A DNA stretch of 64,000 bases, taken from Ligilactobacillus cholophilus. GTDB taxonomy: Bacteria > Bacillota > Bacilli > Lactobacillales > Lactobacillaceae. The notes beneath the pieces are model-generated. The model did no database searches and had not been told where the DNA came from. It saw only the letters and a program-made list of their open reading frames with translations. Below, piece by piece: positions 59,984 through 63,868 of the stretch. Positions within the stretch are counted from its first letter, which is position 1. Every line of letters starts with the position of its first letter. The position numbers and the translations under genes were made by a program. Location: assembly GCF_030389495.1 (NCBI RefSeq), contig NZ_CP127832.1:372001-436000 (forward strand), read 5' to 3'.

Positions 59984-62578
59984 ATGAATAATGATCAATT
60001 AACGCAAGCAGTTCAAGATGCGATTGCTGAGGCGCAACAAATTGCGATAACACGACATCAACAAGAGATCGACGTACCTCATTTGTTTAAATTTTTAGTA
60101 CAACCAAATGAACTTGGTGAAGAGATTTATCAAAAAGCTGGGTTAGATATAAATGCAATTAATAAAGAATTAGATAATGAAATTGATCATATTTCATCAA
60201 TTGAGGGAAATGTTCAATATGGACAAACATTAAGTCAGAATCTATTTCAATTGCTACAACAAGCTGACACTTTAAGAAAAGAAATGAATGATGATTTTGT
60301 TGCTGTTGATACGGTAATTTTAGCGTTGATGAAATTGCAATATAATCCATTTAAACTTTTCTTGGAAAAGCAAGGTGCAACTTATAATAAGTTAGTTGAA
60401 ATTGTAAAAAGTTTACGAGGAGGTAGCCGAGTGACAAGTAAGAATCAAGAAGAACAATACCAAGCTTTAGAGAAATATGGTGTTGATTTAGTAGCAGAAG
60501 CTGTTAAGGGAAAACAAGATCCAATTATTGGTCGTGATGATGAAATTCGCGATGTTATTCGTATATTGTCTAGAAAGAGTAAGAATAATCCAGTATTAAT
60601 TGGAGAACCTGGTGTAGGTAAGACTGCTATTGTTGAAGGATTAGCACAACGAATTGCTAAAAAGGATGTTCCTGAAAATTTACGTGATAAAACAATTTTC
60701 TCTTTAGATATGGGCTCATTAATTGCTGGTGCGAAGTATCGTGGAGAATTTGAAGAACGGTTAAAAGCAGTTTTAAAACAAGTTCAAAAAAGCGAAGGTA
60801 AAATTATATTATTTATTGATGAAATTCACAATATTGTTGGCGCAGGAAAAACAGAGGGAAGTATGGATGCAGGTAATTTATTAAAACCAATGCTTGCTCG
60901 TGGAGAACTTCACTTGATTGGTGCAACAACTTTAGATGAATATCGTGAATATGTTGAAAAAGATAAGGCATTAGAACGTCGATTCCAAAAGGTTTTAGTT
61001 AAGGAACCAACTGTTGAAGATACAATTTCAATTTTACGTGGCTTGAAAGAACGTTATGAAATTCATCATGGAGTAAGAATTCATGATAATGCTTTAGTCG
61101 CTGCAGCAACTTTATCTAATCGTTATATTACAGATCGTTTCTTACCAGATAAGGCAATTGATTTGGTTGATGAAGCTTGTGCGGAAATTCAAGTTGAAAT
61201 GAATTCAATGCCAACAGAACTTGATCAAAGCAATCGTCAATTAATGAGATTACAAGTTGAAGAAGCAGCATTGAAAAAAGAAACAGATGCTGCATCTCAA
61301 AAACGTTTGAAAGAATTGCAAAAAGAACTTGCAGATACAAAGGAAAAAGTTAATAAGCTTAAATTGAAGTGGGAAAACGAAAAGAATGACATTCAAAAGG
61401 TCAGTGATAAAAAAGCAGAATTAGATAAAGCTAAACATGATTTAGAGAATGCAGAAAGCAACTATGATTTAGAAAAAGCTGCAAAATTGCAACATGCAAC
61501 AATTCCTCAATTGCAAAAACAACTTAAAGAACTTGAAGAATCTGAACGTCCAAGCGAATGGATGGTAGAAGAATCTGTAACTGAAAATGAAATTGCGGAA
61601 GTTGTTAGCCGACAAACAGGAATCCCAGTTGCTAAATTAGTGCAGGGAGAACGTGAAAAATTATTACATTTGGCTGATACGCTTCATAAGCGTGTAATTG
61701 GTCAAGATGAAGCTGTAGATGCTGTTGCAAATGCAGTTTTAAGATCACGTGCCGGATTACAAGATCCATCTAAACCATTAGGATCATTTATGTTTTTAGG
61801 ACCAACTGGTGTAGGTAAAACAGAATTAGCAAAGGCATTGGCAGATGATTTATTCGATTCAGAAAAACATATGATTCGAATTGATATGAGTGAATACATG
61901 GAAAAAGCATCAGTCTCACGGTTAGTGGGGGCTGCTCCAGGATATGTTGGTTATGAAGAAGGAGGCCAATTAACTGAAGCTGTTCGCCGGAATCCTTACA
62001 CAATTGTGTTATTTGATGAAATTGAAAAAGCACATCCAGATGTCTTTAATATTCTTCTTCAAGTGTTAGATGATGGTCGTTTAACAGATGGACAAGGAAG
62101 AACTGTTGATTTTAAGAATACGATTTTGATTATGACATCAAACTTGGGTTCAGAAATCTTACTTGATAGCTCAGAAAGTGATGGCAAGATTTCAGATGAA
62201 ACTAAGGAAAAGGTCATGAAGTTAGCACAAAGTCATTTTAAACCTGAATTTTTAAACAGAATTGATGACATCATTATGTTTAGTCCACTTACATTGAGTG
62301 TTATTGAAAAGATTGTTGATAAATTTATTGATCAACTTTCATCACGACTTAAATCACAAGAAATTGAATTATCAATTGATGATAAAGCAAAAGAATTTAT
62401 TGCTAAAGAAGGATATGATCCAGCATATGGTGCTCGTCCATTGCAACGGTTTATTACAACTAACATTGAGACTCCATTGGCTAAGGAGATTATTGCGGGT
62501 AAAGTTCAGCCTAATTCAAAGGTTATGATTTCATTAGATGATGATGAAAGCGGTATTATTTTCAAAATTTGTAAATAA
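59984..62578 (+). CDS. clpB: ATP-dependent disaggregase ClpB
   Basis: ClpB threads aggregated proteins for refolding with DnaK/DnaJ, encoded just upstream. The N-terminal Clp_N domain (1-145), first AAA+ module (Walker A GEPGVGKT, 207-214), a coiled-coil M domain (about 400-530) and second AAA+ module ([14 protein letters not shown]) are complete. The length is 864 aa. The ATG at 59984 follows AGGAG; an in-frame GTG at 59975 lies on that site. No CtsR box or CIRCE was recognised in the 110-bp upstream region. It is the last clear housekeeping gene before the accessory segment. Confidence 0.97.
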
Positions 62579-62694: not shown

Positions 62695-62733
62695 TAGATG
62701 AATAAATGACCTAAAGAAAGGAGAGTTATTTAT

Positions 62734-62928
62734 ATGGCAACTTATAAACAAATTAAATTAAGACCAGATAAATTTAAAATGCTTAAATATCTATCAATAA
62801 CAGAGGGTAAAAATATGACTGATTTACTTGATGAATTGCTTGAGATAGGTTTTGAAACAAAATACAAAGGTGTGTCTATTGGGGAAATTGTAAACAAAGA
62901 TATTCAAAATAATAGAGATAAGTTTTAA
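62734..62928 (+). CDS. Small ribbon-helix-helix-like protein
   Basis: A 64-aa basic protein beginning MATYKQIKLRPDKFKMLKYLSI, then EGKNMTDLLDELLEIGFE. The pattern of a short beta strand of alternating residues followed by two helices with a TDLLDELLE-type second helix resembles the ribbon-helix-helix (CopG/Arc) fold of plasmid copy-control proteins and antitoxins; the family itself was not recognised with certainty. The ribosome binding site is AAAGGAGAG. No toxin partner lies next to it. It immediately precedes the candidate non-coding RNA, so it may be its regulator or simply a plasmid- or phage-type neighbour. Confidence 0.6.
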   Translation: MATYKQIKLRPDKFKMLKYLSITEGKNMTDLLDELLEIGFETKYKGVSIGEIVNKDIQNNRDKF

Positions 62929-62935
62929 TTTTTAC

Positions 62936-62964
62936 TTGCATTAAAAATAATATGATATTATAAT
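62936..62964 (+). promoter_or_regulatory. Sigma-A promoter of the candidate long non-coding RNA
   Basis: TTGCAT (62936-62941), exactly 17 bp and TATAAT (62959-62964), which predicts a start near 62971. No credible ORF follows for over 700 bp. Confidence 0.65.
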
Positions 62965-63009
62965 ACTTAATAAGATGATTATTCATCATAATTAAATAAA
63001 GAGATAAAT

Positions 63010-63101
63010 AAAAAAGCCTTCCCGGTACTGCAATACCGAAAAAGCCAATAGTTTCATAGGTTTGTATAATAAAGAAACTAAGTTTATTATAAGGCTTTTT
63101 T
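63010..63101. repeat. 92-bp palindromic element with terminator-like ends
   Basis: AAAAAAGCCTT (63010-63020) and AAGGCTTTTTT (63091-63101) are perfect terminal inverted repeats. Inside are the hairpins CGGTA/TACCG and TATAATAAA/TTTATTATA, plus a GTTTC/GAAAC pairing that competes with the latter. Both strands would end in a T run. It is either the first domain of the non-coding RNA, a bidirectional terminator, or a small repeat element. Confidence 0.6.
63057..63078 (+). repeat. Direct repeat, copy 1
   Basis: A 22-bp copy (TAGGTT-TG-TATAATAAAGAAAC) that recurs with one gap and one change at 63655-63675. Confidence 0.75.
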
Positions 63102-63540
63102 AGTGGTTTGACAAGCCTTAATTATCGTCTAAGGGTTGCTACCTTTCAACTAGTCCTTAAAATAGCACGTGAGACCTAACAGAGAAGGTCTTGTAGTTAG
63201 CAGGGTTTAAATACCTTATCTGTGTAATAATGATAAAAAACTTGGGTGGAAGACCATGTTATTAATTTAACGGAATCATTAAAAGCCTATGTTCCTTTTG
63301 TCCATTTCACGAGTTGGGACGATAAACCATAACTCTAGGAACGGGTTGCTCTAGGGGTGGTTGCGAGCTATAAATTTTAGTGTTGGTTGCATTTATTGAA
63401 ATTATTATGTAGTTTGAATAAATGTAATCAAAGACAAACAAAAAAGCATAAACTTTTTTTCTTTTCTCTTTTTCTAGGGGAAAAGACTAAAAAAAAAAAG
63501 CTACGCTACCACGTATCACAATCAGTACTAGATATATAAA

Positions 63541-63576
63541 TAGAGTTACTTATTAATAGTAATTCTATTTTTTTTT
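63541..63576 (+). terminator. Intrinsic terminator closing the non-coding segment
   Basis: TAGAGTTACT pairs with AGTAATTCTA (one G-U pair) across a 7-nt loop, followed by nine T. A weaker A/T-only hairpin, AAAAAAG/CTTTTTT (63440-63460), lies upstream and may be an earlier stop. Confidence 0.75.
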
Positions 63577-63654
63577 AAGTCTATAAATATTAAATAATAA
63601 TAAAGATGAAAAAATGACTAGACTATTAGTCATTTTAGTGTATAATAATAAATG

Positions 63655-63675
63655 TAGGTTATATAATAAAGAAAC
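63655..63675 (+). repeat. Direct repeat, copy 2
   Basis: A 21-bp near-copy (TAGGTT-A-TATAATAAAGAAAC) of 63057-63078, just before the ribosome binding site of the small membrane protein gene. Confidence 0.75.
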
Positions 63676-63688
63676 GAGGTATTTTATA

Positions 63689-63868
63689 ATGTTAAAATGT
63701 TCAGATATTGAGTTATTACTACTATTTAGTATTGTATTAAGTGGCTTGTTGGGAAATGTACAACTTACAACATGGTTGATATTATCATTCCTAGTATTGG
63801 TAATTGTACATATGTTACTAAATAATGAATATGCTGAAAGAATTGCAAACTTTATTTTTAAAGACTAG
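63689..63868 (+). CDS. Small membrane protein of unknown function
   Basis: A 59-aa protein with two hydrophobic stretches (ELLLLFSIVLSGLLG, about 7-21; TWLILSFLVLVIVHMLL, about 27-43) and a short charged tail ending FIFKD. The family is not recognised. The ATG at 63689 follows AACGAGG; a longer in-frame ORF from 63614 would run through a hairpin (ATGACTA/TAGTCAT) and a TATAAT and is not preferred. The lengths and arrangement are like small phage (holin-like) or plasmid membrane proteins, but no such function can be claimed. Confidence 0.55.
   Translation: MLKCSDIELLLLFSIVLSGLLGNVQLTTWLILSFLVLVIVHMLLNNEYAERIANFIFKD

Follow-up and report, generated by a model that had tools for sequence, protein, structure and literature searches.

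Judged by its sequence, the segment at 62936..63576 forms the control locus at the left end of a prophage of ~34 kb, which is inserted into the 3′ end of a Ligilactobacillus clpB. Covarying helices support a structured RNA of ~600 nt encoded here, and comparison of homologous loci supports an allele-specific complementarity between a small RNA (sRNA) predicted on the opposite strand and the leader of the following membrane-protein gene, which the sRNA is predicted to repress. We tentatively explain the locus as an RNA-based lysogeny/immunity switch with an sRNA like c4 of phage P1 and with the long RNA as decoy, a reading that in our judgement falls a little short of probable. The window, that is the whole stretch of 64,000 nucleotides analysed, corresponds to G000:C1:372001-436000 of one single-contig genome of 1.59 Mb.

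The preliminary description had placed the RNA beside a chromosomal clpB; the adjacency to clpB holds, but a prophage attachment site there had been overlooked. The left att copy is an exact run of 125 bp inside the 3′ end of clpB (62421..62545, plus strand), repeated at the right junction (L032 3561-3685). Downstream of the window lie terminase, portal, lysin and integrase genes, with the clpB repeat behind the integrase gene; head and tail genes in between, and dnaE, pfkA and pyk beyond the prophage, were read from translations. In a genome of the same species (G060), clpB is uninterrupted and its translation ends in another tail. The repeat behind the integrase and the intact clpB in G060 therefore place a prophage in the 3′ end of clpB, with the segment at its left end. 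The clpB stop codon lies at 62578, and a new C-terminal tail of ClpB is supplied by the prophage. The host ClpB tail, displaced by integration, is still present beyond the right junction (window 62421-62578; L032 3561-3720). An equal arrangement with a repeat of 91 bp is found in L. aviarius (G003), and L. araffinosus (G010) carries a related prophage at a gene read as mscL. A second terminase large subunit, 31% identical, is encoded at G000:C1:127213-128868, making a second prophage probable in the same genome.

The homologue and covariation search outlined in the preliminary description yielded four distinct homologues and the covarying helices P10 and P6. The four versions are those of the window, of Ligilactobacillus aviarius DSM 20655 (G003, L007), of L. 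araffinosus DSM 20653 (G010, L009) and of IMG/VR contig 2744054799 (L010), hereafter the window, aviarius, araffinosus and IMG/VR versions; where four values are given, they follow this order. All four lie between a gene for a 61-64-aa regulator and a gene for a 57-59-aa membrane protein, in related prophages. As a comparison set they form two closer pairs (window/aviarius and araffinosus/IMG/VR), and two duplicates that are identical over the RNA, IMG/VR 2700989116 (= G003) and 2660238151 (= G010), were removed before any counts were made.

The predicted structured sense RNA covers ~605 nt of the plus strand (62971..63576), as delimited by a promoter and a terminator and marked by covarying helices and by the lack of an ORF shared by all homologues. 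The TTGCAT-17-TATAAT promoter reported earlier is present at 62936..62964 (plus strand; TTGCAT 62936-62941, 17 nt, TATAAT 62959-62964) and scores 9, 12, 9 and 9 of 12 in the four versions. The closing terminator is likewise seen in sequence and fold, as a plus-strand hairpin with a T-run at 63541..63576; the terminator scan listed the aviarius counterpart, not the window copy. No ORF of at least 25 aa is common to the four homologues, in agreement with the preliminary description, which had found no credible ORF. Two overlapping ORFs in the P10 region, one per strand, occur in the window and aviarius versions and are absent from the araffinosus and IMG/VR versions, and the longest stop-free runs of the homologues vary in frame and length. 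A coding gene was accordingly rejected, no ORF being common to all four. Over 62965-63480, the plus-strand fold is better than that of shuffled sequences (z −3.4, 0 of 100 as good). The motif GGGTTGCT does occur twice, at 63133 and 63343, as had been described, but the duplication is not conserved: the aviarius and IMG/VR homologues contain one copy and the araffinosus homologue none, and the duplication was therefore given no weight.

That this is a large structured non-coding RNA, as had been claimed, is backed at the level of sequence comparison by homologues with covarying helices. The list of helices was drawn up by hand from the sequences, and pair probabilities were taken from single-sequence folding. 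Hairpin P10 (63384..63430, plus strand) has a covarying outer stem, a nearly invariant inner part and a fixed G-G mismatch. Its 20 pairs are formed in 80 of 80 cells of the four-sequence comparison, and five of them covary with changes on both sides, G-U pairs being among the compensatory changes; the covariation score exceeds those of all 500 shuffles and is far above that of slid controls, and the count of covarying pairs was reached by 5 of the 500. Being nearly invariant, the inner part looks as if it were a protein site. All six pairs of hairpin P6 (63172..63191, plus strand) covary. Hairpin P5 (63131..63145, plus strand) has one covarying pair and a low pair probability in the window and aviarius versions; for P5 and P6 together, 38 of 40 cells are paired and seven pairs covary, with a score above all 500 shuffles and a pair count reached by 2 of 500. 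Folding of the four aligned sequences with RNAalifold gave −138.5 kcal/mol. When columns were shuffled class by class, the value was −69.8 kcal/mol, and 0 of 60 shuffles came as low (z −10.5). Between the araffinosus and IMG/VR versions, five helices have at least two compensatory pairs (mean 0.64 and maximum 2 in 100 column shuffles). The same helix test was not significant for the window/aviarius pair, with eight helices against a mean of 6.6 and 33 of 100 shuffles as high.

The other helices complete a tentative architecture of the plus-strand RNA. In the 5′ domain (63010..63101), P1 (63010-63020/63091-63101) encloses P2 (63023-63038), which carries two compensatory changes between the window and aviarius versions, and P3 (63049-63080). 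Hairpins P7 and P8 occupy 63204..63236; P8 covaries between the araffinosus and IMG/VR versions and is weak by folding in the window. P9 (63291-63296/63337-63342, spanning 63291..63342) is tentative, with compensatory changes in both homologue pairs and low single-sequence pair probability, and a possible H-type pseudoknot within it (63300-63303/63317-63320; 63311-63315/63331-63335) is tentative as well. Covariation supports P8 and P9 more weakly than P10 and P6. P11 and P12 (63453..63507), tentative in the window, keep their layout and differ in sequence in the other RNA subtype. By folding, P2, P6 and P10 are strong, as are P1 and the terminator in all but the aviarius version and P3 in all but the window (0.30). 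Folding of single sequences gives weak values for P4a, P9 and the pseudoknot, for P5, P8 and P11 in the window and aviarius versions and for P12 in the window; the basis of these elements is comparison.

From the promoter to ~63100 the window is closer to the araffinosus and IMG/VR versions, and from ~63100 to ~63480 it is closer to the aviarius version. The window RNA (62936-63480 compared to L007, L009 and L010) is in this respect a recombinant, with an araffinosus-like 5′ module and an aviarius-like 3′ module. Identity between the window and aviarius versions is 80.7% over the RNA core (63100-63480) and 59.8% over the 5′ part (62972-63105), with 51-68% for seven phage genes, 75.7% for the host clpB and 79.1% for dnaJ. 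Between the araffinosus and IMG/VR versions, identity is 88.5% for the RNA, compared to 99.5% for the regulator, 78.7% for the membrane protein and 89.5% for the gene that follows it, so that the RNA of this pair is not conspicuous in its conservation.

Two models, R1 for P10 and R2 for the sRNA with its promoter, were used in genome scans with stricter filters, under which weak matches are lost. Among 397 genomes of the family R1 matched 3, and among 295 of the order it matched 1, which was the window's own; R2 matched 3 of 369 genomes. Within the genus, the RNA is present in the three genomes whose large terminases are 55-100% identical, the next best terminase being 41% identical. An early protein of the araffinosus prophage, used as query, retrieved three IMG/VR contigs, and all three contain the RNA. 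Searches of viral contigs by pattern and protein returned two, then repeatedly the same three contigs, with one search adding four that have no R1 match. A pattern scan of genome contigs gave eight stretches, two of which are Ligilactobacillus prophages; the other six were judged to be chance, five of them reaching at best 27 bits or less with R1 or not being listed. Comparison to plasmids and phages by blastn gave short matches only (best E 0.05 and 0.01), and further blastn runs gave none; among 20 family genomes compared by blastn, 17 were dropped as having short matches only (E 8.8e-6 or weaker). A search for phages with the 57-aa protein found none.

The preliminary description offered two readings of the RNA, one of the ROOL/GOLLD kind and one as an undescribed class. 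No Rfam family reached its gathering score in the window or the homologue loci, and the first reading found no model match in the covariance-model scan: neither ROOL (RF03087) nor GOLLD matched the window segment or the three homologue-bearing loci at E up to 10, and other families gave chance-level matches only. The ROOL model does work in congeners, matching 5 of 26 Ligilactobacillus genomes (L056-L060), none of them among the three carriers of the new RNA, and membership in ROOL or GOLLD was rejected. An undescribed class fits, as no Rfam family matches, and the literature search gave no report of this RNA among the matches listed.

By size and setting, the nearest known RNAs are ROOL and GOLLD. 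ROOL, which includes the L. salivarius lncRNA, resembles the new RNA in being structured, in its length of about 550 nt and in its occurrence on mobile elements, among them those of Ligilactobacillus. It is often, not always, found near phage tRNA islands, whereas for the new RNA a tRNA search that covered the window and ten loci of these prophages gave 0 genes. GOLLD is similarly large, is encoded by prophages and combines conserved with variable sequence, but many of its members exceed 800 nt and the new RNA is shorter, with no tRNA found beside it. ROOL forms an RNA-only cage. GOLLD expression rises in lysis; of the traits of GOLLD, the location in a prophage was observed for the new RNA. 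Passages of PMC12286853 describe cages formed by ROOL and GOLLD, without known function, and passages of PMC5643018 report that deleting the L. salivarius lncRNA reduced megaplasmid copy number.

On the minus strand, an antisense sRNA of 73 nt is predicted at 63007..63079, composed of hairpin 1, a terminator hairpin and U6, and this two-hairpin layout recurs in all four versions, with R2 scores of 101-115 bits. Its promoter, TTGTCA-17-TATAAT (63086..63114, minus strand), scores 11, 11, 10 and 11 of 12; each version has TTGTCA or TTGATT, a spacer of 17 nt and TATAAT, and each has a minus-strand terminator. With the start set by rule at about 7 nt past the −10 element, the predicted sRNA is 65-73 nt long in the four versions; the 5′ arm of its hairpin 1 comes first, and the terminator hairpin and six U come last. 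The top-scoring promoter in the window scan was that on the minus strand (63114-63086), followed by the minus-strand terminator; the aviarius scan gave the same antisense promoter/terminator pair, but there the sense promoter was on top (12/12). Such promoter and terminator matches are a prediction, not proof, of transcripts. The earlier reading of the locus as a single RNA is supported by sequence as regards the long RNA itself, and had overlooked the antisense sRNA, its target leader and the operator-like sites. The antisense promoter overlaps the conserved sense-strand GCTTTTTTAGTG, which is therefore in part antisense promoter. P2 and P3 may equally be hairpins of the antisense strand, so that their conservation is not creditable to the sense RNA alone; the sRNA includes no part of P6, P8, P9 or P10.

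The proposed target of the sRNA is the gene for a 59-aa hydrophobic protein, seen in the sequence at 63689..63868 (plus strand). PHROG and Pfam gave no family for a longer ORF reading of this membrane protein at E up to 0.001, and Pfam gave one meaningless row for the 59-aa reading (E 0.085). The leader segment at 63655..63675 (plus strand), which abuts the GAGG at 63676-63679, is mirrored by P3 and complementary to hairpin 1 of the sRNA. In all four versions, P3 is a near copy of its own leader just upstream of GAGG (20/20 nt in the araffinosus version), with 0 of 2000 shuffles as good in any of them. The own leader scores highest of the four leaders in every version, narrowly so in the IMG/VR version (15.0 vs 14.5), and it is the best match of P3 outside the RNA (~34 kb searched in the window and aviarius versions, 20 kb in the araffinosus and IMG/VR versions). 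As P3 copies the leader, the antisense hairpin 1 is complementary to it: the hairpin-1/leader duplexes have energies of −22.4, −23.0, −29.1 and −19.3 kcal/mol, with 0, 1, 0 and 1 of 1000 shuffles as low. The own leader gives the best hairpin-1 duplex in three of the four versions, and the IMG/VR hairpin pairs slightly better with the araffinosus leader (−20.5 vs −19.3). Hairpin 1 was tested alone because the duplex scores of the whole sRNA were unclear. The full-length sRNA/leader duplex was unconvincing (z −2.1 in the window, −1.3 in the aviarius version); in the window, the 57-aa gene at L006 8537 (−31.8) and TerL (−28.5) lie below the own leader (−26.1), and in the aviarius version int (−28.7) is lower than the own leader (−26.3).

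A coarse scan of the early region with the whole sense RNA returned the P3/leader match on top in the window, araffinosus and IMG/VR versions. In the aviarius version the leader was outside the top eight, which include a T-rich match and a P10-like one at L007 8878. Matches of segments of the sense RNA that occur in a single element were taken as chance. The long sense RNA was also considered as an antisense to phage gene starts, and this was rejected, since RNAduplex, run on 4-8 starts in each element, yielded no target that the elements share; isolated values were z −2.8 for gene3 of the window, z −3.1 for TerL of the aviarius version and z −2.2 for the membrane gene of the araffinosus version. 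In the window only, the P3 region has a second match, upstream of a Rep-like gene (20.0 vs 20.5 for the leader). This P3-like stretch, just upstream of that gene at L006 10785-10809 (G000), exceeds all 150 shuffles with its 20.0 and is a possible second target or relic.

The gene preceding the sense RNA (62734..62928, plus strand) encodes a 64-aa regulator, for which weak profile hits and a low-confidence structural model suggest a ribbon-helix-helix (RHH) fold. Pfam RHH families gave no match for the window regulator and weak matches for its aviarius counterpart (E 0.14 and 0.22), and its best PDB sequence match is ORF E73 (E 0.29). The model has a mean pLDDT of 63 and a pTM of 0.37; Foldseek with this low-confidence model gave best rows that include Arc, Reg576, ParG, CopASO and CopG, with a best E of 1.5 and 0 of 57 at E ≤0.001. 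The top rows are mostly what we take to be RHH proteins. Given the low confidence of the model, the RHH reading is barely raised or lowered by it. The window regulator is 91% identical to the araffinosus and IMG/VR regulators and 25% identical to that of the aviarius version.

Operator-like sites were found in the promoters of this locus by motif search. In the window, GATGAATAA lies in the regulator promoter (62697..62705, plus strand); the palindromic GATGATTATTCATC (62974..62987) spans roughly positions +4 to +17 of the sense transcript and is the only copy in the 34-kb prophage, the corresponding site of the aviarius version lying in the spacer of the sense-RNA promoter. The membrane-protein promoter of the window (TATAAT at 63641) holds a different palindrome, ATGACTAGACTATTAGTCAT (63614..63633). 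Both copies of GATGAATAA in the window prophage, and all three in the araffinosus prophage, fall within the regulator, sense-RNA or membrane-gene promoters (expected 0.007). In the aviarius prophage, both copies of ACTAGNTNNCTAGT are in these promoters (expected 0.001), GATGAATAA occurs once, elsewhere, and the promoters hold two of the five copies of the half-site ACTAGGTA. Over the 6.8 kb covered of the IMG/VR version, three of four GATGAATAA copies are in the RNA and membrane-gene promoters and one is elsewhere, with no exact copy at the regulator. No operator-like site was seen at the antisense promoter. Judged from the sequences, these sites, imperfect as their pattern is, argue well for a regulator and operators that belong together and whose alleles change together.

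HTH_3 had no match among the scanned early proteins of the window, of the aviarius version and of part of the araffinosus version, and one aviarius early protein matched HTH_36 weakly (E 0.035). Five congeneric prophages (G007, G012, G013, G020 and G023), with large terminases 37-41% identical, have HTH-like repressor genes at this place; HTH_3 was found in four of the five sibling fragments tested, and Cro-like, antirepressor-like and ordinary replication genes were read there from translations. A sixth sibling (G004) was left out, as it ends too near the contig edge. R1 gave nothing significant in the five sibling prophages. Because no CI-type repressor was found among the early proteins scanned here and the siblings have HTH-like genes, the locus is proposed as the lysogeny switch. 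The early region of one sibling (L088 9906-10140, G012) also has a group I intron match of 51.3 bits (gathering score 50).

We hypothesize that in the lysogen the predicted 65-73-nt antisense sRNA would be transcribed from a promoter of its own, at which no operator-like site was seen. Hairpin 1, by its complementarity, would pair upstream of the Shine-Dalgarno sequence and block the early gene for the 57-59-aa membrane protein, while the RHH-like protein, through the sites described above, would hold low its own promoter and those of the sense RNA and the membrane gene. On loss or absence of this repressor, the ~600-nt sense RNA would be transcribed through the sRNA gene. As both perfect complement and target mimic, it could remove the sRNA, with convergent transcription adding to the effect, and the early gene would be turned on. 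The conserved P4-P12 part might stabilise the RNA or bind a protein, which is the weakest step. The model predicts repression by the own allele and none by a foreign allele. A more far-reaching version, which we regard as doubtful, is that in this Gram-positive phage lineage a CI/Cro switch has been replaced by an RNA switch in which the sRNA is allele-specific, the opposite-strand ~600-nt RNA serves as antisense, target mimic and sink, the whole is gated by the RHH protein, and specificity is re-set by recombination between phages.

By mechanism, and as an analogy, the nearest known system is c4 of phages P1 and P7. The c4 RNA is ~77 nt long, and the predicted sRNA of 65-73 nt is like it in having two hairpins, with hairpin 1 complementary to a ribosome-binding leader in all four versions. 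It differs in that the sRNA would have its own promoter and lies opposite a structured RNA of ~600 nt in which the sequence of the target leader is repeated; furthermore, the target of c4 is an antirepressor gene, whereas here it is a 57-59-aa hydrophobic membrane protein, and the host is Gram-positive. Passages of PMC12197685 describe c4 as an antisense RNA and as the basis of heteroimmunity: its complementary stretches, which are likely located in loops, base-pair with a phage mRNA in the region of the ribosome-binding site. The locus adds a large structured phage RNA that matches no Rfam family and has both covariation support and a testable regulatory context. To our knowledge, RNA-based lysogeny control is rare in Gram-positive phages; if the proposed switch is real, it would provide such a case and a clue to the purpose of large phage RNAs.

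A point against the proposed switch is that a decoy role would need only the 5′ ~130 nt. P4-P12 would be accounted for if the long RNA were a particle-forming ornate phage RNA like GOLLD or ROOL, a homo-oligomeric cage abundant in the lytic cycle, which the sRNA would keep off in the lysogen. The size, the prophage location, the elaborate covarying structure and the combination of a variable middle with conserved modules agree with this, as does the core at 63100-63480, which is 80.7% identical to the aviarius version compared to 51-68% for phage genes. We nevertheless think it unlikely, since the allele-specific match between the sRNA and the membrane-gene leader would be left unaccounted for, there is neither an Rfam match nor a tRNA nearby, the 5′ part is only 59.8% identical to the aviarius version, and the araffinosus/IMG/VR RNA is less conserved (88.5%) than the regulator (99.5%). 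A particle function of P4-P12 could coexist with the decoy role. Chance repeats in AT-rich intergenic DNA, or a function of the DNA itself, for instance as one arm of attP or as a series of operators, would dispense with a functional RNA altogether; the segment is very AT-rich, palindromes are common and homologues few, but the compensatory changes, G-U pairs included, the R1 scores of 87-97 bits on the plus strand vs ≤23 bits on the minus strand at the same places, and the higher conservation of the window/aviarius RNA core than of the neighbouring genes make this very improbable.

The ColE1 (RNA II/RNA I/Rop), pIP501 and pMV158 loci likewise combine a long RNA, an antisense RNA over its 5′ part and a small protein regulator, and the locus could by this likeness belong to plasmid-type replication or copy control with a Cop-like protein, in a phage with an iteron origin. 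Such a role would agree with the antisense RNA at the 5′ part of the ~600-nt RNA and with the small CopG/Arc-like protein, whose own promoter carries a site. It would also agree with the tandem repeats of 22 bp and 43 bp that precede the Rep-like gene 5-6 kb downstream and, in the window only, with the match to the P3 region that lies 40-70 bases ahead of this gene. That match was not seen in the other three versions, and its duplex with the sRNA reaches only −14.8 kcal/mol; no consistent pairing was found between the long RNA and the rep start, the sRNA target in all four versions is the membrane-gene leader, and the assignment of the Rep-like gene lacks meaningful Pfam or PDB support. Compared to the plasmid loci, there is a second, proposed antisense target in trans, the predicted RNA stops at a terminator of its own before the membrane gene, and the Rep-like gene is 5 kb off. 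Copy control is thus improbable in our view, and we give no better prospects to a type I toxin-antitoxin system in which the membrane protein would be the toxin and the sRNA the antitoxin, while the long RNA would merely arise from convergent transcription. A 57-59-aa hydrophobic protein with a ribosome-binding leader complementary to a short structured sRNA is what such a system would have, but the sRNA is encoded ~600 bp upstream of its target, which it does not overlap, on the strand opposite to a separate long RNA, and the covarying P6, P8 and P10 would not be accounted for.

Two further features of the early region were observed. At L006 8710-10850 and L007 10375-12050, ~2 kb without long ORFs precede the Rep-like gene and contain the tandem repeats of 22 bp and 43 bp; this stretch is perhaps a plasmid-type iteron origin in a prophage. 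At L006 7590-8370 (G000), three repeats each have a promoter-like start and an end like a CTTGGTTGTTCATCAACTAAGG-T7 terminator, with a short hydrophobic peptide on the minus strand; by eye, this stretch looks like a small-RNA array with a type I toxin-antitoxin.
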